This document shows positions 1-10,421 of a stretch of 64,000 nt of DNA, in pieces (positions within the stretch are counted from its first letter, which is position 1; every line of letters starts with the position of its first letter). The DNA lies in the NCBI RefSeq assembly GCF_006274605.1, contig NZ_CP040846.1:1371041-1435040 (forward strand), given 5' to 3'. Below the pieces are notes generated by a model. The model had not been told where the DNA came from, did no database searches, and saw only the letters and a list, made by a program, of their open reading frames with translations. Origin of the DNA: Thermococcus indicus. GTDB taxonomy: Archaea > Methanobacteriota_B > Thermococci > Thermococcales > Thermococcaceae. A program made the position numbers and the translations under genes.

Positions 1-1084
1 CGCTCTTTGGCTCGCCGGAGTAGCCGTAGCCCTCAACGCCGACGAAGCTCACCATCGGCAGCTCCTCAAATTTCGGCTCGACCCACCTCACGACTTCCCT
101 CGTGTAGTAGTTGTTCCCTATCCAGTCGTTCCTCTCAAGGTGTGGAATCCTGGTCGGGTTGAAGTCGAGCTCCAAATCGACCCTCCCCCTGTTGAGGGCC
201 TCTAGGAAGAGCCTGTTGTGGAAGTAGTCGTAGTTCTCGGCCGCTTTTATGTCCCGCTCGTCTTTGGGGTTCAGGGGGTAGGCGGGTATTATGTTCAGGA
301 TTATCCCCACCGGAGCCTTTGTGTGCTCCTTTATGGCCTCGTAGGCCCTCGCGTGGGCGATCATCTGGTTGATGATGACCCGCTTTGCAGCCTTGGGGTT
401 GAGTATTCCCGGTGGCCAGCCGACGTATGGAGCGAGGTAGCCGAGCTCGACGGTAACCATCGGTTCGTCGAAGGTCGCCCAGAAATCGACGAGCTCCCCG
501 AACTTCCAGGCCGAATAGGCCGAGAACTTGACGAACTCGACCACGTTCCTCTCGTCCACCCAGCCCCTCGCTCTACTGCCCTCGAAGTCGCTCCTCGTCC
601 AGAGGGGGTCGTGAACCCATACCGGCAGGGTCTGGTGGTTCAGCGTCACGAAGGTGGTAAAGCCAAGCTTCTTCAGGTTCCTGAGGACGGCCGAGTAGTG
701 CTCCACCTCGCGCCTGTTGGCCAGGGCGTCGAGCTCCTCAAGGGCTTCCTTTGTGACCTTCACGCGCTTTATCAGTCCGTAGGAGTCCCTCTCGACTTTG
801 ACCTTAACGCCCCACGTCGGGCAGGGGAAGATTCTGCTCCACTCTATCGTGAGTTGGTAAGCATTCAGGCCGAGGTCCTTAGCCAGGCGGTGGTCTATCT
901 CGTAGAGCTCGTAGTTGTTTATGCCCTCCTCGGGCAGATCGCCGCTCACAAGGTCGTTCTTTATGTTGAATGGGTCGCGGACCCAGTGCCACCAGTCGGT
1001 TCTGGCGTCTACGTTCCTCCGGTATAGATCACCCATCTCGAACTGAAATGCCGACTGAACGACGCCCCAGTGAAAACTGACCAT
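1..1084 (-). CDS. GH1 family beta-glycosidase, N-terminal 361 residues (runs off left edge)
   Basis: This glycoside hydrolase family 1 enzyme belongs to the archaeal beta-glucosidase/beta-mannosidase branch. It probably acts in the cytoplasm on disaccharides imported by the neighbouring transporter. The start at 1084 opens MVSFHWGVVQSAFQFE, the usual beta-barrel beginning, behind a GGAGAGGTGG ribosome site. The acid/base motif is at residues 204-208 and reads TFDEP instead of the family's TxNEP, so Asn206 is replaced by Asp (codon at 467-469). The nucleophile region lies beyond the window. The gene is divergent from the binding-protein gene, in the position of TK1761 in the T. kodakarensis chitin locus. 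The family call is secure; substrate is inferred from context. Confidence 0.93.
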   Translation of the reverse strand, partial: MVSFHWGVVQSAFQFEMGDLYRRNVDARTDWWHWVRDPFNIKNDLVSGDLPEEGINNYELYEIDHRLAKDLGLNAYQLTIEWSRIFPCPTWGVKVKVERDSYGLIKRVKVTKEALEELDALANRREVEHYSAVLRNLKKLGFTTFVTLNHQTLPVWVHDPLWTRSDFEGSRARGWVDERNVVEFVKFSAYSAWKFGELVDFWATFDEPMVTVELGYLAPYVGWPPGILNPKAAKRVIINQMIAHARAYEAIKEHTKAPVGIILNIIPAYPLNPKDERDIKAAENYDYFHNRLFLEALNRGRVDLELDFNPTRIPHLERNDWIGNNYYTREVVRWVEPKFEELPMVSFVGVEGYGYSGEPKS

Positions 1085-1143
1085 CAATTCCACCTCTCCA
1101 ATTATAGATTCCATCGTTTTTATAATTTTCCATGTCCTCTGAT

Positions 1144-1225
1144 GTTCATCTGTCCCAGCCAGAACACCCGTGAACCAAGGGGACACGTGAACTTTTGTGT
1201 ACAGCGTAGTGGATATGATGTTCAC
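1144..1225. promoter_or_regulatory. Repeated GTGAAC/GTTCAC motifs between the divergent glycosidase and transporter genes
   Basis: The divergent intergenic region carries GTTCAT at 1144-1149, GTGAAC at 1170-1175 and 1187-1192, and GTTCAC at 1220-1225. The first and last sit in nearly identical contexts (TGATGTTCAYC). The last copy ends seven bases before the TATA box of the transporter operon. They look like operator half-sites for a regulator of the chitin/glucosamine locus. The regulator is not identified in this window. Confidence 0.35.
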
Positions 1226-1230
1226 CAAAA

Positions 1231-1241
1231 AGCTTATATAG
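1231..1241 (+). promoter_or_regulatory. TATA box of the transporter operon
   Basis: AGCTTATATAG lies about 55 bases upstream of the ATG at 1292, which predicts a leader of roughly 30 nt. An A-rich stretch just upstream could serve as BRE. A second AT-rich candidate (TTATAAAAT) lies at 1254-1262. Confidence 0.5.
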
Positions 1242-1291
1242 ATTCCACCCATGTTATAAAATTGACATTGTTTATAATGAGGTGGGAAACT

Positions 1292-3184
1292 ATGAAAAGG
1301 TACCTCGCCCTTGCCGTGGTGGCTCTTCTGCTTGGTAGTTTAGCGGGCTTTGCCAGCGCCGCCGAGGAGAAGGGTCCGGCTAACTTCGGCAACTATTACA
1401 ACGCTCAGGCCAACGAGCTCCTTAGGGCCCTTGCCACCACCTCCGATGAGAACAAGCAGGTTGAGTACCTGAAGGAGCTTACCAAAATATGGCTCCAGGA
1501 CGTTCCGGCCGTTCCCGTCTACACCGGTACCGTCTTCTACGAGGCCAGCACCAAGTACTGGAAGGGCTGGCCCAACGAGAAGAATCCCTACGGCGTTCCG
1601 ATATTCTGGGCCGGCTTTGGAACCTGGGGTACGGCCCTTGCCCTCCTCGGAGTCAAACCAACCGGGGTCCAGGACGATACCGGTGGCGACTTCCCGAGGC
1701 ACGAGACCATATACACCGCCAACAGCGCTCCCCCGACCAGCGCCAACCCCTTCCAGGGCGGCAACATCATAGGCATCGATGGCCTCGTCTTCGAGCCGCT
1801 CTTCATGCTCAACTTCATGACCACCGAGCTGAAGCCCTGGCTGGCTGAGAGCGGGACTTGGATCAGTGACAACACCTTCGAGGTCAAGCTCCGCGATGCC
1901 ACTTGGCAGGACGGCCAGCCGCTGACGGCGGAGGACGTCGAGTTCTCCTTCGAGTACTACGAGAAGCTCGGCCTCAAGGACTGGAGTGCCGTAGGGCTTA
2001 AGGAGATAAAGGTCGTCGATGACAGAACGGTTGATTTCATCTTCGAGGGCAAGCCCAACGTCTGGGCCTGGAGGAGCAACCTCTACTCGGTTCTCATAGT
2101 CCCGAAGCACGTCTTCGAGAACCTCGACCCCGAGCAGGTCAAGACCATGACCTTCACCGGCGACGACAAGGAGTACCTCGTCGGCTCTGGTGCTTACAGG
2201 CTCAAGGAGGTCGTCCAGCAGCAGAAATCGATCCTTGAGAGGAACGACGACTGGTGGGGAGCCAGGTACTTCAACGAGCCGGCCGCCAAGTACATAATCC
2301 AGCTCTACGTCTCCAGCAACGACCAGGCGGCCAACATGTTCCTCAAGGACGACCTCGACGTTGCCACTTACTACCTCGACATAGCCGAGCTGAAGAAGCA
2401 GAACCCCAACATAGTCAGCTGGCTCGAGGGTGAGCCCTACTTCCCACCGGTCGTACCGGTCGTGCTCTACTTCAACACCGCCCACGAGCCGCTCAACAAC
2501 CCCGAGGTCAGGAGGGCGATAGCCATGGCCATCAACCCCGAGCAGATAGTCCAGCAGGGCCCCATAAGCGCCGTCCCCGACCAGACCCCCCTCGGGCCGA
2601 TAATGCAGGGCTGGAAGGACAGGATAGGCGCCGACCAGCTCATCAAGGAGTACGGCTGGAAGTACGGCGACATAGCCGGGGCCATAAAGATACTGGACAG
2701 CCTCGGCATCAAGGACACCGATGGGGATGGCATAAGGGAGTACAACGGCAAACCCCTCAAGCTCACCTTCATAACCTGCTCCGGCTGTTCTGACTGGGTC
2801 CAGACCGGCGAAATCATCAAGAACCAGCTCAGGCCCCTTGGAATAGACGTCGAGATAAAGACCGGTGACTGGACCAACTTCTTCATGAAGAACCTCAACG
2901 ACGGCAACTTTGACCTGGCACTCCACTGGGCCGGAACCTTCAAGCCCGACCCGTACAGCGTCTACTACAGCCTCATGTACAACGAGAACCCGCCGGAAAC
3001 GCCGACTGAGACTCCGACTACTACCTCACCATCCACAACTTCCCCGTCAAGCACTACTTCGCCTTCGACCACTCCGAGCACCAGCAGTCCAACCACCACA
3101 ACCAGCGGCGGTGGAGGAATCTGCGGTCCGGCCGCGTTAATAGCCCTCGCCGCGATACCCCTCCTCCTCAGGAGGAGGCGCTGA
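1292..3184 (+). CDS. ABC transporter solute-binding protein (family 5), circularly permuted order, CGP-CTERM anchored
   Basis: This 630-residue surface protein of the DppA/OppA-like family 5 probably captures glucosamine or chitin oligosaccharides. The start at 1292 follows GAGGTG and gives a signal peptide at residues 1-23. Residues 27-124 (PANFGNYYN through LALLGVKPT) look like the C-terminal block of this family. The canonical N-terminal block (RHETIYTANSAPPTSANPF) follows at about residue 136. The body ends at the DLALHWAGTFKPDPYSVYYS region, where the moved block would normally continue. A Thr/Ser/Pro stalk and a CGP anchor motif with a hydrophobic helix and four Arg close the protein. 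The gene heads a transporter operon. Family is secure; the permutation is read directly from block order. Confidence 0.9.
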   Translation: MKRYLALAVVALLLGSLAGFASAAEEKGPANFGNYYNAQANELLRALATTSDENKQVEYLKELTKIWLQDVPAVPVYTGTVFYEASTKYWKGWPNEKNPYGVPIFWAGFGTWGTALALLGVKPTGVQDDTGGDFPRHETIYTANSAPPTSANPFQGGNIIGIDGLVFEPLFMLNFMTTELKPWLAESGTWISDNTFEVKLRDATWQDGQPLTAEDVEFSFEYYEKLGLKDWSAVGLKEIKVVDDRTVDFIFEGKPNVWAWRSNLYSVLIVPKHVFENLDPEQVKTMTFTGDDKEYLVGSGAYRLKEVVQQQKSILERNDDWWGARYFNEPAAKYIIQLYVSSNDQAANMFLKDDLDVATYYLDIAELKKQNPNIVSWLEGEPYFPPVVPVVLYFNTAHEPLNNPEVRRAIAMAINPEQIVQQGPISAVPDQTPLGPIMQGWKDRIGADQLIKEYGWKYGDIAGAIKILDSLGIKDTDGDGIREYNGKPLKLTFITCSGCSDWVQTGEIIKNQLRPLGIDVEIKTGDWTNFFMKNLNDGNFDLALHWAGTFKPDPYSVYYSLMYNENPPETPTETPTTTSPSTTSPSSTTSPSTTPSTSSPTTTTSGGGGICGPAALIALAAIPLLLRRRR

Positions 3185-3221
3185 GTTCTTCCTTTTCTTT
3201 TAAATCGATGGGGGGAAACGA

Positions 3222-4214
3222 ATGGGGTTCAGGAAGTACCTGCTCAGGAAGACTGTGGTTTACCTGGTAACCTTCCTCTTCGCGGTTACGCTCAACTGGC
3301 TCCTTCCGAGGCTCATGCCCGGCAATCCAATCGAGGCCATGATAGAATCCAACCTCAACCTCGCCCCGGGCGAGAAGGAGATACTCATAAAGTTTTACGA
3401 GGAGCTTTACGGGCTCAACGAGCCCCTCTGGAGGCAGTTCGTGAACTTCTGGGTCAGGCTCTTTCACGGGGACCTCGGCTACAGCCTTCTCTACAAGGCC
3501 CCCGTATGGGATTTAATCAGGCACGCCCTTCCCTATGACATAGCCATCCTCCTCCCGGCCATAGCCCTGAGCTGGTTAGTCGGGAACTGGCTCGGTGCCC
3601 TTGCCGGGAAGAACAGGAGGTATGACCGCTACATGATGCCCCTGTTCTACTTCCTCGCGAGCATGCCCTACTTCTGGTTCGCCATGCTTCTCGTCTACTT
3701 CGTCGGCGTCAGGGCCGACCTGCTCCCCTACCAAGGTGCCTACGACCCGGCCCTCGTTCCGGCCCTTTCCTGGGAGTTCATAAAGAGCTTCCTGGAGCAC
3801 TGGATCCTTCCGTTCCTGAGCCTCTTCACGGTCATGATCGGCAGCTGGGCAATCGGAATGCGCAACATGATAATCTACGAGCTTGAGGCAGACTACGTCC
3901 GCTATCTCGAGGCCCTCGGCGCGAGCGAGAAGCTCATGACCAAGCACGCCTACAGGAACGCTATCCTGCCCCAGGTCACAGGCCTGGCCCTGCAGCTCGG
4001 CCTCATGGTGGCTGGAGCGATAGCGACGGAGATAGTCTTCAACTACCCAGGAATAGGCATACTCCTGATGAACGCCGCGCTTAGCCAGGACTACTTCCTC
4101 CTCCAGGGGGCGTTTCTGATGGTGGTCATCTCGGTTCTGGCTGCCAACTTCGTCATCGACATAGTCTACGCCTTCATAGACCCGCGCGTCAGGGCAAGCT
4201 ACACGGAGGGTTGA
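3222..4214 (+). CDS. ABC transporter permease, DppB/OppB family
   Basis: This 330-residue inner-membrane permease has about six transmembrane segments and, near residues 220-245, the BPD_transp_1 EAA-type coupling loop (EADYVRYLEALGAS). It follows the binding-protein gene after 37 T-rich bases and overlaps nothing upstream. It pairs with the next permease to form the channel. The position matches the TK1756-TK1760 transporter next to glmD/glmA in T. kodakarensis, so the imported substrate is probably a glucosamine disaccharide rather than a peptide. Confidence 0.92.
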   Translation: MGFRKYLLRKTVVYLVTFLFAVTLNWLLPRLMPGNPIEAMIESNLNLAPGEKEILIKFYEELYGLNEPLWRQFVNFWVRLFHGDLGYSLLYKAPVWDLIRHALPYDIAILLPAIALSWLVGNWLGALAGKNRRYDRYMMPLFYFLASMPYFWFAMLLVYFVGVRADLLPYQGAYDPALVPALSWEFIKSFLEHWILPFLSLFTVMIGSWAIGMRNMIIYELEADYVRYLEALGASEKLMTKHAYRNAILPQVTGLALQLGLMVAGAIATEIVFNYPGIGILLMNAALSQDYFLLQGAFLMVVISVLAANFVIDIVYAFIDPRVRASYTEG

Positions 4215-4216
4215 GA

Positions 4217-5155
4217 ATGGCCAGGGAAAGTGCTCTCTCAAAGCTCAGGCTTGCCTTCAGAAACAACAAGTTCCGCTTCGGCTTCGCACTGTTGGCGTTC
4301 TTCGTGCTGTTCGCCATAGTCGGACCTCTCTTCACGCCCTTCGCCAGCGACGGCTTGTACTATGAGACCATACCGGGCACCAACATAAGCGTCGCCACCT
4401 ACTCGACCAAGACCCTCCCCCCGATGACCCACGAGAACCTCACCACCTACACCGGGAAGGGGGTCGAGGTACTCCACATACTTGGAACCGACAAGCTCGG
4501 CAAGGACCTCTACACCCTCATCGTCTACGGACTCAGGACGAGCCTCTGGGTGGCGGTCCTGGCGGCGGTGATAGGGACGGTCATGGGAATAACCATTGGC
4601 TTCATCGCCGGCTACCGCGGCGGCCTCACGGACGAGCTATTGATGATGTTCGTGAACATAATGCTGGTCATTCCCTCAATAGTGCTCCTTATCCTCGTCG
4701 CGGCCTACCTTGAGGCGAGAAGCCCGGAAGTCCAGGCCCTCATCATAGGCCTAACAGGCTGGCCCTGGGTCGCCAGAGCCGTTCGCTCCCAGACGCTGTC
4801 GCTCAAGAACAGGGAGTTCGTGAACCTCGCCAAGCTCGCCGGGCTGAGCGACCTCAGGATAATCTTCGGCGAGATAATGCCCAACATGATCTCCTACATC
4901 TTCATGGTCGGAATCCTGCAGTTCAGCGGGGCAATACTCGCTTCGGCAACGCTCGACTTCATCGGCCTGGGCCCCACCACGGCCGTCTCGCTGGGAACCA
5001 TACTCCAGAAGGCGATAGCCCACAACGCCCTCCAGTTCGGCTGGTGGTGGTGGTTCATTCCGCCCGGGCTGATTATAACGCTCATCATCACGGCGTTGTT
5101 CTTCATCAACCTGGGAATGGAGGAGGTATTCAACCCGAGGCTTAGGAGGGAGTGA
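4217..5155 (+). CDS. ABC transporter permease, DppC/OppC family
   Basis: This is the second permease subunit, 312 residues, with an N-terminal helix, an external loop and the usual five C-terminal helices. The coupling loop around REFVNLAKLAGLSDLRII contacts the ATPases. The ATG at 4217 is preferred over the in-frame TTG at 4211 because GGAGGG lies just upstream. The start is two bases after the dppB-like stop, so the genes are translationally coupled. Confidence 0.92.
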   Translation: MARESALSKLRLAFRNNKFRFGFALLAFFVLFAIVGPLFTPFASDGLYYETIPGTNISVATYSTKTLPPMTHENLTTYTGKGVEVLHILGTDKLGKDLYTLIVYGLRTSLWVAVLAAVIGTVMGITIGFIAGYRGGLTDELLMMFVNIMLVIPSIVLLILVAAYLEARSPEVQALIIGLTGWPWVARAVRSQTLSLKNREFVNLAKLAGLSDLRIIFGEIMPNMISYIFMVGILQFSGAILASATLDFIGLGPTTAVSLGTILQKAIAHNALQFGWWWWFIPPGLIITLIITALFFINLGMEEVFNPRLRRE

Positions 5156-5156
5156 G

Positions 5157-6128
5157 ATGTCACTGCTCACCGTGGACAACCTTAAAATCTACTACGCGAC
5201 GCCCAGGGGCCACGTCAAGGCCGTGGACGGCGTTTCCTTCGACGTCAGGGAGGGGGAGGTCTTCGGCATAGCCGGCGAGAGCGGCTGCGGGAAATCAACG
5301 CTCGTCCACTCCCTTATCCTCAGGAAGCCCCCGATGGTTCACATGGGTGGAAAGGCAATCTTCAAGGGAATGGACCTGATGACGATGGACGAGCGTGAAT
5401 CCCGGAGGATTCGCTACACTGAACTCTCCATAATCCCCCAGTACGCGATGAACGCCCTGAACCCGACGAAGAAAATCAAAGACATCGTCTGGGACCTGGC
5501 CAGGGAGCACGGCCACACAGACAGGGGGGAACTAGAGAAGCTCCTCCGCGAGAGACTGGCCATGGTCAAGCTTTCCCCCAAGGTCGCCGACATGTACCCG
5601 GTTGAGCTGAGCGGTGGAATGAGGCAGCGCGCGACTATGGTGGTCTCAACCCTGCTCAACCCCGACCTCCTCATAGCGGACGAGGTTACCTCCGCTTTGG
5701 ACGTCACGACCCAGCGCGTTGTCATAGAACTCCTCCACCACTTTATGGAGGTCGGCATAGTCAAGTCAATAATCTTCGTCACCCACGATTTGGCACTGCT
5801 CGACAAGATAGCCGACCGCGTCATGATACTCTACGCGGGAAAAGTGGCTGAAATCGGCCCGACGGAGGAGATAATCAGCTCTCCGGCCCACCCGTACACC
5901 AGGCTCCTCCTCGACTCGCTCCCCAAGATGGGAGTGCAGTACAGGAGGCAGAAGCTCAAAGGGATTCCGGGCTATCCGGTAAGCCTCCTCAACCCGCCGA
6001 AAGGCTGCCGCTTCTACACCCGCTGTCCCAACGTGATGGATAGGTGCGGCGAGCTCGAGCCAAAGCTGGTCGAGGTCGGGCCGGGGCACTACGCGGCCTG
6101 TCATCTCCTAGGGGGTGAGAACCAATGA
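5157..6128 (+). CDS. ABC transporter ATP-binding protein, DppD/OppD family
   Basis: This ATPase of 323 residues has Walker A at residues 40-48 (GESGCGKST), the signature LSGGMRQR near residue 157, Walker B (LLIADEVT) and the H-loop (VTHD). The C-terminal oligopeptide-transporter extension carries the CRFYTRCP cysteine motif. It starts one base after the upstream stop and overlaps the next ATPase gene by four bases (ATGA). It forms a heterodimer with the next ATPase to drive import. Confidence 0.94.
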   Translation: MSLLTVDNLKIYYATPRGHVKAVDGVSFDVREGEVFGIAGESGCGKSTLVHSLILRKPPMVHMGGKAIFKGMDLMTMDERESRRIRYTELSIIPQYAMNALNPTKKIKDIVWDLAREHGHTDRGELEKLLRERLAMVKLSPKVADMYPVELSGGMRQRATMVVSTLLNPDLLIADEVTSALDVTTQRVVIELLHHFMEVGIVKSIIFVTHDLALLDKIADRVMILYAGKVAEIGPTEEIISSPAHPYTRLLLDSLPKMGVQYRRQKLKGIPGYPVSLLNPPKGCRFYTRCPNVMDRCGELEPKLVEVGPGHYAACHLLGGENQ

Positions 6129-7087
6129 CCCTCCTTCAGGTTGAGCACCTCACCAAGGTCTTCACTTCGGGATTCATAGGCGGCTTTGAAATCCGGGCCG
6201 TCGATGACGTCAGCTTCACAATAGGGAAGGGCGAGATAGTCTCGCTGGTAGGCGAGAGCGGCAGCGGAAAGACCACCGTTGGAAAGCTCATACTCCGGCT
6301 TATCCAGCCCACCTCCGGAAGGATACTCTTCGAGGGCAGGGACGTCCTGGAATTCGGCAAGAAGGAGCTCAAGAAGAACTACTACCGCCAGGTTCAGGCC
6401 GTTTTCCAGGATCCCTTCGCGAGCTTCAACCCGCTCCACCCGATTGACCGGGCCTTCGACCTGGTGTTTAACTCCTACTTCCCTGGGACGGGCCGGGAGG
6501 AAAGGGAGAACATGATAAACTCCGCCCTTGAGGGCGTCGGTCTGAACCCCGCCGAGATTAGGGGCAAGTACCCCCACCAGCTGAGCGGCGGCCAGCTCCA
6601 GAGGATTCTCATCGCCAGGGCTTTGCTCCTCAAGCCCAAGCTCCTCATAGCCGATGAAGCAGTTTCGATGCTCGACGCTTCAACGAGAATAGACGTCCTC
6701 AACCTCCTCGGCGACTTCAGGGACAAATATGGGACTTCGGTTCTCTTCGTCACCCACGACCTGGCGTTGGGCTACTACATCAGCGACTCGACGATAATCA
6801 TGTACCGCGGAACCATCGTCGAGATGGGCGACACGGAGAAGGTCTTCCACAACCCGCTCCACCCATACACCCAGATGCTCCTCGAAAGCGTGCCCGACTT
6901 GAACGTCAGGTGGGAGTTCAAGGGAATCGAGCCGGAGAAGGAGGAGGGGGCAGTTTATTCCATCCAGGGCTGTCGCTACGCGCCGAGGTGCCCGAGGGCC
7001 AAGGAGAAGTGCTTCAAATTCCGTCCCGGGCTTGTTGAGGTCGAGAAGAACCACTGGGTTGCGTGCCATCTCCACGGGGGTGGTTGA
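6125..7087 (+). CDS. ABC transporter ATP-binding protein, DppF/OppF family
   Basis: This partner ATPase of 320 residues has Walker A at residues 43-51 (GESGSGKTT), the signature LSGGQLQR, Walker B LLIADEAVS and the H-loop VTHD. The C-terminal cysteine motif (CRYAPRCPRAKEKC) is typical of the family and can hold an Fe-S cluster in DppD/F proteins. The stop abuts the start of the deaminase gene, so uptake and catabolism genes form one operon. Confidence 0.94.
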   Translation: MTLLQVEHLTKVFTSGFIGGFEIRAVDDVSFTIGKGEIVSLVGESGSGKTTVGKLILRLIQPTSGRILFEGRDVLEFGKKELKKNYYRQVQAVFQDPFASFNPLHPIDRAFDLVFNSYFPGTGREERENMINSALEGVGLNPAEIRGKYPHQLSGGQLQRILIARALLLKPKLLIADEAVSMLDASTRIDVLNLLGDFRDKYGTSVLFVTHDLALGYYISDSTIIMYRGTIVEMGDTEKVFHNPLHPYTQMLLESVPDLNVRWEFKGIEPEKEEGAVYSIQGCRYAPRCPRAKEKCFKFRPGLVEVEKNHWVACHLHGGG

Positions 7088-8068
7088 ATGCACTCGACGA
7101 TTAGGGAGATTAGAAAGACCCCCGAGGGAATAATCAGGGCCCAGAGGGCCTTCGAGGAATTCATAGCCAATCACGACTTCCGGTTACCGAGGGAGATAGT
7201 TTATACTGGCTGTGGCAGTTCACACTTTTTGGCAAAGCCGCTGGCCATGGCAACCACCCGCCTCGGGGGCAGGGGGTTCAGCGCCCCCTGCTCCGAACTT
7301 CTCTATTCGAGGGAGTGGTATCCGATAGGGAACCCAGAGCTCCTCGTGGCGATTTCGCGCTCAGGCGAAACGACCGAGGCGGTGAAGGCCCTCGAAGCCC
7401 TCGACGTCCCGAGGTTCGCCCTCACAGCCTACGAGAGCGCCCTATCTAGGAAAGCGGATTATGCCTTGATAGTCCCGGCCCACGAGGAGAGTGTCGTCAT
7501 GACTCACTCGTTCCCGGCCTTCTACTTCGCCTACCTCCAGCTGCTCCTCAGCTCGTTCGGGAAGGAAACACACAATGCGGAGCTCGTCTCCTCCCTGACG
7601 GGGGAGGTCTTAGAAAGCGAAGACTACATCAGGGAGCTCGTTGAGGGCTTCGACTTCAGGAACGTTATCTTCTTGGGTTCAGGAATACTCTATCCGGTGG
7701 CACTTGAGGCGATGCTCAAGATGAAGGAGATGGCCCTCTTCTGGAGCGAGGCTTACCCGACTTTCGAGGTGAGGCACGGCTTCAAGTCTATAGCAGACGA
7801 GGGAACGCTCGTCGTTCTGCTCGTCGATGAGCCCTTCAACTGGCACGAGAAACTGACAAGGGAGTTCCAGGGGCAGAAGGCGAGGGTTCTAACCGTCGGG
7901 AGGCGCGACACAGGTGCGGACTACTTCATGGAGGTTCCCGAGGTGGATAAGCTGGTGAGTCCCGCCCTCTACCTCCCGGTTGTTCAGCTTTTGGCCTACT
8001 ACAAGGCCGTTTCGCGCGGTTTGAACCCCGACAACCCCAGGTTCCTCAGCAAGGTCGTCAAGTGGTGA
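7088..8068 (+). CDS. glmD: Glucosamine-6-phosphate deaminase (SIS-domain, archaeal GlmD type)
   Basis: This 326-residue protein has two SIS sugar-isomerase domains. The first has the phosphosugar-binding SRSGETTE loop near residue 95; the second spans about residues 180-320. Archaeal GlmD converts glucosamine-6-phosphate to fructose-6-phosphate and ammonia. It is unrelated to bacterial NagB and resembles the isomerase half of GlmS. Placement directly before glmA matches the TK1755/TK1754 pair. The start at 7088 immediately follows the upstream stop. Confidence 0.88.
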
Positions 8069-9459
8069 TGGTGATGAGGGTTGGCCACGATGGTAAGACT
8101 TACATACTGGACGGTGAGCGCTTCCTCGTCTACGGAGGGACGCTCCAGTTCTTCAGGGTTCCAAGGAAGGACTGGGAGGACAGGCTGGAGAGGATGAAGG
8201 GGCACGGCCTCAACACTGTAGACACCTATGTCGCCTGGAACTGGCACGAGCCCGAGAAGGGGAGCTTCGACTTCACGGGGGAAACTCACCCGCAGAGGGA
8301 CCTAATCGGCTTCCTTGAGCTGGCCGAGAGGCTCGACCTCAAGGTCATCATCAGGCCCGGCCCCTACATCTGCGGCGAGTGGAGGAACGGCGGAATACCC
8401 GACTGGCTCATCGACGAACACCCGGAAATCCTGGCAAAGGGCCCCAACGGACCGCTTCCGAGGGATATCTACTACCCGCCGGTTACCTACCTCCACCCGG
8501 TCTATCTAAAGGCCGTCTCGGAATGGTACGATGCCGTTCTCCCGGTAATCAGGGACTACCTCTACACCAAAGGCGGGCCGATAATAAGTGTCTCCATAGA
8601 CGATGAGCCCTCCTACTGGGAGACGATATTCCAGCCCTTCCTGACCGATTACAACGACGTCATCGTTAAACCCGGCGGCCTCTGGGAGGAGTGGCTTAGG
8701 CGTAACTACTCCCTTGACGAGCTGGGCGAGCGCTACGGAATTCCCATAGGCGACTACTCCGAGGTCTACGCCCCGGCGAGCGAGAACGAGCCCCTGCCGA
8801 AGATACTCGACTGGCACCACTTCAAGATATGGATGACGAACCGCTACGTCGAAACCCTCTACAACCACCTCAAACGCTACATTGACATTCCAATAAGCAT
8901 ACTCGACCCCTACCTGCTCTTGGCGGCGTGGAGGCACTTCTACCGCTACGTCAGGGAGAAGAACCTCGACATACACCTCTGGACCGAGTTCTGGTACTCC
9001 TTCTACCGCTCCTTCGACCTGAAGGAGGACAGGCTCGGGCACGTCTATTATAAAACCGGAATCTACCGCTTCTATCGGAGAAAACTTGGAACGCCACCTC
9101 TCAGCATAGAGACGCAGGCTTCCCTGGCCCACACGATAGAGCCCGACGAGGCCGAGCACCTCTACTCGCTGATAGCTTCCCTTGGAATCCACAACATCAA
9201 CTACTACCTCTACGTCGGCGGCGAAAACCCGAGGGGCTACGAGTCCCACAACGGAATCACCTGGGACGTTTACTCGCCGATAGGCCTCGACGGGAGCGAG
9301 AGGCCCCACGTTGGGCCAATAAAGTGGCTCGGCGAGTTCCTGCTCAACAACCCGGACTTCGTTAATTCGGAGCTCAGGCCGAGGGTTGCCTTCGGAACCT
9401 ACGAGCCCTACGAGGCGGTTTCGCTGTTCGGCCTCAGGGGGGCCTTACCGAGAGCGTGA
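8068..9459 (+). CDS. glmA: Exo-beta-D-glucosaminidase GlmA, 5' part of frameshifted gene
   Basis: This is the catalytic part of the GH35-like exo-beta-D-glucosaminidase that cleaves chitobiose-derived glucosamine dimers to glucosamine. The TIM barrel begins at residue 1. The acid/base motif is SIDDEPS (Asp179-Glu180 from this start) and the nucleophile is Glu348 in PLSIETQ. These match the positions reported for the T. kodakarensis enzyme (about 786 residues) to within one residue. The frame breaks after LFGLRG: the G run at 9437-9442 has six Gs, and a seventh restores reading into the next segment. The start overlaps the glmD stop (TGATG at 8066-8070). Confidence 0.88.
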   Translation: MVMRVGHDGKTYILDGERFLVYGGTLQFFRVPRKDWEDRLERMKGHGLNTVDTYVAWNWHEPEKGSFDFTGETHPQRDLIGFLELAERLDLKVIIRPGPYICGEWRNGGIPDWLIDEHPEILAKGPNGPLPRDIYYPPVTYLHPVYLKAVSEWYDAVLPVIRDYLYTKGGPIISVSIDDEPSYWETIFQPFLTDYNDVIVKPGGLWEEWLRRNYSLDELGERYGIPIGDYSEVYAPASENEPLPKILDWHHFKIWMTNRYVETLYNHLKRYIDIPISILDPYLLLAAWRHFYRYVREKNLDIHLWTEFWYSFYRSFDLKEDRLGHVYYKTGIYRFYRRKLGTPPLSIETQASLAHTIEPDEAEHLYSLIASLGIHNINYYLYVGGENPRGYESHNGITWDVYSPIGLDGSERPHVGPIKWLGEFLLNNPDFVNSELRPRVAFGTYEPYEAVSLFGLRGALPRA

Positions 9460-10421
9460 ACCTCAACGAGTACATCCTGGGCGAGCGTGGGCTTTTGACG
9501 CTCCTCGCCATGAGCAACGTTCCCTTCGACGTCATTGACCTTGAGGAGGCATCTTTTGATGAGATGCTCTCCTACGACCAGCTCTGGGTCTACAGTCTCG
9601 ACTTTCTCTCAAGGGAAGTCCAGGACAAGCTCGTCGAGTTCGTTGCCAAAGGGGGGAACCTCGTAATCCTCCCGATGCTTCCCTACCTCGACGAGAACAT
9701 GAAGCCCTATTCGGCCTTGGTGGAGTTCCTCGGCGTTGAGGTTGAGAGAGTCAATGCTAGAGACAACCCGAGGCTGATTCAGTTCACGAGCGTATCATCG
9801 GAGGGAATAGACAGGATGCTCGTCAGGAACACCGTGAGGGAAGTTAGGGGTGGGGAACCCTTCGTCTTCCACTACGGAAAACCGGTGGGAACGTTCGTGA
9901 GGAGAGGAAAGGGAAGTGCAATCGTCCTCGGCTTCAGGCTGCAGTACTACACCAGCCACCACGACCTTCACAGGAAGTTCGTGGACAAGCTTTTGGCGAT
10001 GCAGGGAGTTGAGAGGGACTTCGAGGTAACCGACAGGGACATGATAGCGATTCCGCGCGGGAACTACCTCGTCCTGCTGAACCCGAGGGGGCACAGGGTC
10101 TTTGGGAAGGTGAGGTACAGGGACGTTGAGATTCCACAGCTCCTCGACGGGATAGAGATGGGGAAGCGCGGTGCCCTCTTCCTGCCCTTTGGAGTTAAAG
10201 CTGGGGACGTTGAGGTCGTTTACTCAACGGCAACCCTACTCGGCAGGGACGGGGATGTGCTCCACCTCAGCAACCATCTCTCCGGCATGAGTGAAGTGGC
10301 GCTGAGGAACGTTGATGAGGTCCGGGTCATCAGTGGAAAAATCGTGGACGAGTCACTCTCCGATGGGGTTCTTACCATTGTGGTCGAGCACAGGCCTGGA
10401 AGCTTTGAGCTGGAGTTCTGA
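9456..10421 (+). CDS. glmA: Exo-beta-D-glucosaminidase GlmA, 3' part (beta-domains)
   Basis: This is the C-terminal 321 residues of GlmA, covering the glutaminase-like trimerisation domain and the beta-sandwich. It lies in the +1 frame relative to the 5' part. The GTG at 9456 overlaps the upstream TGA (GTGA), so a separate polypeptide could be made by re-initiation. There is no separate promoter and no strong ribosome site, and sequence continuity across the G run argues that this was one gene. No other stop interrupts the segment, so the break is recent, programmed or a sequencing error. Confidence 0.85.
   Translation: MNLNEYILGERGLLTLLAMSNVPFDVIDLEEASFDEMLSYDQLWVYSLDFLSREVQDKLVEFVAKGGNLVILPMLPYLDENMKPYSALVEFLGVEVERVNARDNPRLIQFTSVSSEGIDRMLVRNTVREVRGGEPFVFHYGKPVGTFVRRGKGSAIVLGFRLQYYTSHHDLHRKFVDKLLAMQGVERDFEVTDRDMIAIPRGNYLVLLNPRGHRVFGKVRYRDVEIPQLLDGIEMGKRGALFLPFGVKAGDVEVVYSTATLLGRDGDVLHLSNHLSGMSEVALRNVDEVRVISGKIVDESLSDGVLTIVVEHRPGSFELEF

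Follow-up and report, generated by a model that had tools for sequence, protein, structure and literature searches.

TpMglB-2 (Tp0684) of Treponema pallidum, a functional and tethered protein, is the 'Cluster Bc' circularly permuted binding protein, and its authors suggested tethering as a reason for the permutation (PMC4990184). A search of the open-access literature turned up no previous case of natural permutation among family 5 or Cluster C binding proteins. In VcCBP of V. cholerae, the Upper1 domain comprises residues 1-35, 140-239 and 489 to the C-terminus, the Lower domain comprises residues 240-488, and the hinge lies at about residues 486-490 (PMC10667598). Sugar-binding proteins of Cluster C-IV conserve Asn204, Trp363, Asp365 and Trp513 (VhCBP numbering), and VhCBP loses about 4 kcal/mol when Trp513 is mutated (PMC8449061). 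Thermococcus has a known chitin pathway whose parts include GlmA and a diacetylchitobiose deacetylase (PMC6566704 and references therein).

The window analysed here, a stretch of 64,000 nucleotides from Thermococcus indicus, includes an ORF on the plus strand (1292-3184) that encodes a protein of 630 residues. Judged from sequence comparisons, the product is a family 5 (SBP_bac_5) solute-binding protein that has undergone circular permutation in nature. The signal peptide is followed by a block that is normally C-terminal (block B), a new linker, the remainder of the binding protein (block A), a Thr/Pro stalk and a CGP-CTERM anchor; the stalk thus comes after block A, not block B. The features of the gene and of its upstream region are as follows.

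1221-1277, plus strand: conserved promoter region, near-identical upstream of permuted and normal binding-protein genes in 8 genomes
1221-1244, plus strand: BRE/TATA-like element TTCACCAAAAAGCTTATATAGATT of the promoter region
1254-1277, plus strand: inverted-repeat-like box TTATAAAATTGACATTGTTTATAA of the promoter region, 5' of the start codon
1292-1363, plus strand: signal peptide, residues 1-24, shared with normal orthologues as far as ...FAS-(V)SAE; the junction EEKG (residues 25-28) links it to the moved block B
1364-1663, plus strand: moved block B, residues 25-124 (phmmer match to 4pft 439-534)
1664-1687, plus strand: linker GVQDDTGG, residues 125-132, connecting the natural C-terminus with the natural N-terminus
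1688-2989, plus strand: block A, residues 133-566, the normal N-terminal and central part (PF00496; phmmer match to 4pft)
2990-3118, plus strand: Thr/Ser/Pro stalk, residues 567-609 (from sequence, compared with normal B-to-stalk junctions)
3119-3184, plus strand: CGP-CTERM sorting/anchor domain, residues 610-630, and stop (TIGR04288)

In a phmmer search of the PDB, the protein matched 4pft (whole-sequence E of 1.7e-85) in two collinear pieces whose order is swapped, residues 134-546 corresponding to 4pft 3-414 and residues 25-120 to 4pft 439-534. When the protein is compared with Thermococcus relatives, residues 132-567 match first and residues 26-124 second, and in every normal relative tblastn placed the match to residues 26-124 on the 3' side of block A. 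Pfam PF00496 (SBP_bac_5) covers residues 179-565 with an E-value of 5.5e-76 (256.5 bits, cut-off 32.4), but the canonical linear order of this family, in which the C-terminal block is last, is absent since block B precedes block A. The C-terminus (residues 610-629) matches TIGR04288 (CGP-CTERM) with 27.5 bits against a cut-off of 21, and an AGGTGG ribosome site lies immediately upstream of the start of the signal peptide. A preliminary description of this DNA had reported the ORF, signal peptide, block order, stalk and CGP anchor, and all of these were found as described. It had also held the rearrangement to be a relocation and not a duplication, which agrees with the presence of a single gene copy in the genome and of each block once. 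The moved block does lie directly after the signal peptide, with its limits corrected from residues 27-124 to residues 25/29-124 (1364/1376-1663 in the window). The block that follows is normal N-terminal sequence as had been stated, but it is the entire remaining 434 residues (133-566).

The permuted gene takes the slot that the normal gene occupies in the operon, with GH1 on one side and the permease, ATPase, SIS and GlmA genes on the other.

1-1084, minus strand: divergent GH1 glycosidase gene, running off the window edge (Pfam Glyco_hydro_1); the same neighbour occurs in all relatives
3222-7087, plus strand: cognate ABC transporter genes (Pfam BPD_transp_1, ABC_tran, oligo_HPY), syntenic in permuted and normal genomes
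3222-4214 and 4211-5155, plus strand: two permeases
5157-6128 and 6125-7087, plus strand: two oligopeptide-type ATPases
7088-8068, plus strand: SIS-domain sugar isomerase/deaminase (Pfam SIS)
8062-9459 and 9456-10421, plus strand: GlmA-type exo-glucosaminidase, frame broken (Pfam GH42/GH35, GLMA_2nd, GLMA_C)

Two permeases and two oligopeptide-type ATPases beside the binding-protein gene form the context of SBP_bac_5/Cluster C proteins, and the TTATAAAATTGACATTGTTTATAA box is a possible operator for the operon. The GlmA gene is split by a one-base frame change beside a run of G near 9436-9442, while it is a single frame in the relatives checked; the frameshift may be genuine or may stem from a sequencing error. 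A PIG-L (Dac-like) deacetylase gene is located about 2.6 kb before the binding-protein gene, outside the window (G000:C1:1369318-1369701).

A search of 61 genomes from the genus gave full-length matches in the permuted order, at 88-90% identity, in two more species (G030 and G004). The junctions are near-identical in the three permuted copies (EEKG/PANFG, KPTG-VQD(D/N)xGG-DFPRHE and MYNENPP), and the linker of 7-8 residues is present in all three alleles as VQDDTGG, VQDDAGG or VQDNGGG and absent from normal alleles. In a sample of 115 genomes of the phylum, 39 had a match at E < 1e-40, 36 of them without the permuted order, and no permutant beyond the three was found. Other homologues examined, down to about 40% identity, gave two separate matches, A then B, and bacterial homologues with both blocks have the normal order. 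Unpermuted homologues all place the equivalent of residues 27-124 at the C-terminus, and the collinear alignment with an N-terminal domain that the preliminary description had set as counting against a permutation did not occur. Normal orthologues (G001, G032, G018; L090-L092) share the operon, promoter, signal peptide, stalk and CGP anchor with the permutant and are 83-84% identical to it in block A and about 78-80% in block B, but their order is signal peptide, A, B and stalk, with the stalk on the upper-lobe end.

The restriction of the permuted order to three genomes, together with a low-complexity stalk that could mislead an assembler, might be taken to mean that the block was misplaced during genome assembly. 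Such an error is hardly credible, however, given that separate assemblies of three species agree in block order and are near-identical at the junctions, which are in frame, that the three copies differ by about 10% in protein with pairwise dS of 0.3-0.5 in block A, and that each genome has one copy, leaving no paralogue available to recombine in silico. A second, normal copy was not found in the permuted genomes. Misassembly, which the preliminary description had named as one way in which its reading could fail, was rejected on the strength of the two other Thermococcus species with the same order. A real gene could still be a dead or decaying copy, as might be argued from the broken GlmA frame nearby in the same genome and from the faster change of block B on the stem to the permuted copies, where dN between permuted and normal copies is 0.11-0.15 as compared with about 0.02-0.07 among normal copies and 0.02-0.03 within the permuted ones. 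Decay is nevertheless highly improbable: the reading frame is intact in all three species, the promoter, signal peptide and anchor are conserved, and a second close copy of the binding protein is absent from the genome. Moreover, pairwise dN/dS among the three permuted copies (Nei-Gojobori) is 0.095-0.13 in block A and 0.02-0.065 in block B, values which indicate that the permuted protein is maintained. The permuted gene is under purifying selection. The pairwise dN values suggest a burst of changes in block B around the rearrangement, on the stem to the permuted copies, and part of these changes may be compensatory.

The closest solved structures are TmMnBP1/2 of T. maritima (TM1223, TM1226; 4pft, 4pfu) and the Vibrio CBP (1zty, 5yqw, 7ebi), with about 35% and about 23% identity to the permutant, respectively. 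These are Cluster C sugar-binding proteins that share conserved Asn, Asp and Trp residues of the sugar site with the Thermococcus protein, but they are unpermuted and the equivalent of Trp363 is Cys in the Thermococcus group. Residues N343, D501 and W106 of the permutant align to Asn204, Asp365 and Trp513 of VhCBP, which accounts for three of the four Cluster C-IV residues. The equivalent of Trp363 is Cys499 (2786-2788 in the window) in permuted and normal Thermococcus proteins alike, and as a consequence sugar specificity is not readable from VhCBP. The combination of Cys at this position with a retained Asp365 equivalent suggests that the ligand is held differently. W106 (1607-1609 in the window), which lies in block B, is likely the equivalent of the ligand-stacking Trp513. 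The Dac-like deacetylase, SIS isomerase and GlmA genes in or near the operon point to import of glucosamine or chitobiose-type oligosaccharides, and such substrates are the best inference from this context. Chitin-oligosaccharide capture, which had been suggested for this protein, fits the operon, but a GH18 chitinase was not found in the host genome or in any of the five genomes searched. The lack of GH18 despite the Dac-like deacetylase gene raises the possibility that these species scavenge oligosaccharides released by others.

Structure prediction with AlphaFold2 was done without templates, with the A and B parts of relatives entered as separate, unaltered alignment rows; most rows span one block only, which leaves little paired co-variation between the blocks. 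The permuted protein was modelled with pLDDT 88.3 and pTM 0.86, and the normal orthologue from G001 with pLDDT 91.4 and pTM 0.89. Helices and strands are largely shared between the two models in swapped order, and residues 103-111, including W106, have pLDDT < 50 in the permutant model. A single confident fold of the permutant is well supported by prediction, in keeping with the earlier suggestion that the permuted protein could fold, and the pTM suggests that block B packs on block A. Foldseek aligned the permutant to 1vr5 over 428 columns (TM 0.66) and the normal protein over 548 columns (TM 0.87); since Foldseek is a sequential aligner, the lower coverage of the permutant is as expected for a permutation. 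The best structural matches were Cluster C proteins and not proteins of the Type I/Cluster B fold.

The cut between A and B aligns to about residues 427-431 of VcCBP, inside the Lower domain, and by the same alignment residues ~29-82 of block B belong to Lower and residues ~83-124 to Upper1 after the hinge. According to the VcCBP boundaries, both natural chain ends are in Upper1 (PMC10667598), which bears out the earlier claim that they share one lobe. The expectation that the moved block would complete lobe I holds in so far as the block contributes to Upper1, but with the cut in Lower the block serves both lobes. Because the new chain ends are in the lower lobe, the stalk would tether the permutant by the lobe opposite to that used in relatives. 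On these homologous domain boundaries, the stalk and membrane tether probably moved from the upper to the lower lobe, and the altered anchoring geometry that had been proposed would follow from this domain map.

The A blocks of the permuted copies form one clade in the protein tree (support 100/99), as do the three copies in the A+B DNA tree (100/100). Grouping of the three hosts is rejected by GH1 (p-AU 7.8e-5), by DppC+DppD+DppF+SIS (p-AU 2.5e-10) and by rpoB (p-AU 9.7e-7), and these AU tests on the flanking gene, downstream operon genes and rpoB ruled out inheritance by host descent alone. Sliding identity reveals a local tract. G004 is 94-95% identical to the normal G018 in GH1 and DppC, as opposed to 73-89% in block B and the first 450 nt of A, whereas the window genome is 87-89% identical to G004 and G030 in the binding-protein region, 79-80% in GH1 and 72-73% at the start of DppC. 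A single permuted clade, set against flanking genes and rpoB that conflict with a grouping of the hosts, indicates that the permuted allele arose once and then spread between species by homologous recombination. Identity along the operon (1-10421, L088-L092) is a patchwork among Thermococcus species, for example in segments of DppB and GlmA, which points to frequent recombination at the locus that is not limited to the binding protein. Candidate junction remnants of a duplication-deletion intermediate (e.g. NPPATP versus KPAGTP) were no better than shuffles, and the event is too old for the junctions to reveal its original mechanism.

Recombination with a deep-branching Thermococcus relative could in principle have made the permuted gene a mosaic and caused the permutation at the same time, and D52, N54 and K55 in block B and W231 and N403 in block A do match the deep clade. 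This origin is improbable, as sites in A that separate near and deep relatives are 50 near-type versus 4 deep-type without significant clustering, and no junction remnant beat the shuffles. With regard to the product, the natural ends are spanned by the short linker GVQDDTGG, and short linkers favour swaps, such that block B might complete a neighbouring molecule in a domain-swapped dimer; the confident single-chain model and the location of the natural N- and C-termini in the same domain, where a short bridge may suffice, make an arrangement of this kind very improbable. A further question is why the allele spread. Engineered permutants of binding proteins often function, which favours the idea that the permutation is functionally neutral, with fold and tethering as before and the spread due to ordinary recombination at a surface-protein locus. 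The same idea is favoured by recombination in the neighbouring genes of the operon and by TpMglB-2, which keeps ligand binding and closure though permuted (PMC4990184). On the other hand, the domain map has the tether changing lobe, and many changes accumulated in block B on the stem, of which some may be compensatory; taken together, the case for neutrality is evenly balanced. It concerns the cause of the spread and is compatible with the best explanation given below. It is rather unlikely that the shift of the tether altered contact with the transporter and was favoured for doing so, and that the allele spread by recombination in one operon slot for this reason.

Very probably, then, the gene encodes a permuted, tethered Cluster C binding protein of a chitin/glucosamine-oligosaccharide importer that resulted from a single rearrangement, adopts the normal fold and has spread laterally. 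A single rearrangement in a Thermococcus lineage set the C-terminal ~98 residues behind the signal peptide and before the remainder, and a short linker that normal alleles lack came to connect the natural ends. The chain most likely adopts the normal two-lobed shape with block B at its usual place, where it would contribute to both the lower and the upper lobe, provide the hinge between them and bring in the conserved ligand-stacking Trp. The permutant most likely still delivers sugar to the adjacent DppBCDF-type transporter, held by its stalk at what would now be the opposite lobe from that of its relatives. The permuted allele later displaced its normal counterpart in further Thermococcus species via homologous recombination. 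The block order, its recurrence in three species, the single origin and lateral spread of the allele and the purifying selection on it are established, whereas fold, sugar binding and relocation of the tether are what we infer for the permutant.

Permuted binding proteins such as TpMglB-2 were known before in Cluster B; the Thermococcus protein adds a recent, archaeal permutant of Cluster C. Both are natural circular permutants and tethered sugar-binding proteins of an ABC importer, with the sugar role presumed in Thermococcus, and the Thermococcus protein shows circular permutation of the TpMglB-2 type. Its fold class places it outside Cluster Bc, however, as the bacterial TpMglB-2 has the Cluster B/Type I fold and the archaeal Thermococcus protein belongs to Cluster C. 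In TpMglB-2 the usual N-terminal segment is now C-terminal, whereas the move in Thermococcus was from the C- to the N-terminus. TpMglB-2 is also old and poorly conserved, with 13% identity in the moved part, while the Thermococcus permutant has normal orthologues with about 84% identity in block A in the same slot. Natural circular permutation is a rare kind of rearrangement and as a rule comes to light only when much time has passed, in comparisons of distant relatives. Within the single genus Thermococcus, both the permuted and the unpermuted allele are found at one locus, their proteins diverge by about 16-20%, and the permuted allele crosses species. The high interest of the permutant stems from this closeness of the unpermuted alleles, which, together with the mobility of the permuted allele, makes direct tests of the cost or gain of a permutation possible. 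Folding, stability at high temperature, binding and transport could be compared between the alleles, as could be the question of whether it matters which lobe holds a tethered binding protein to the membrane.
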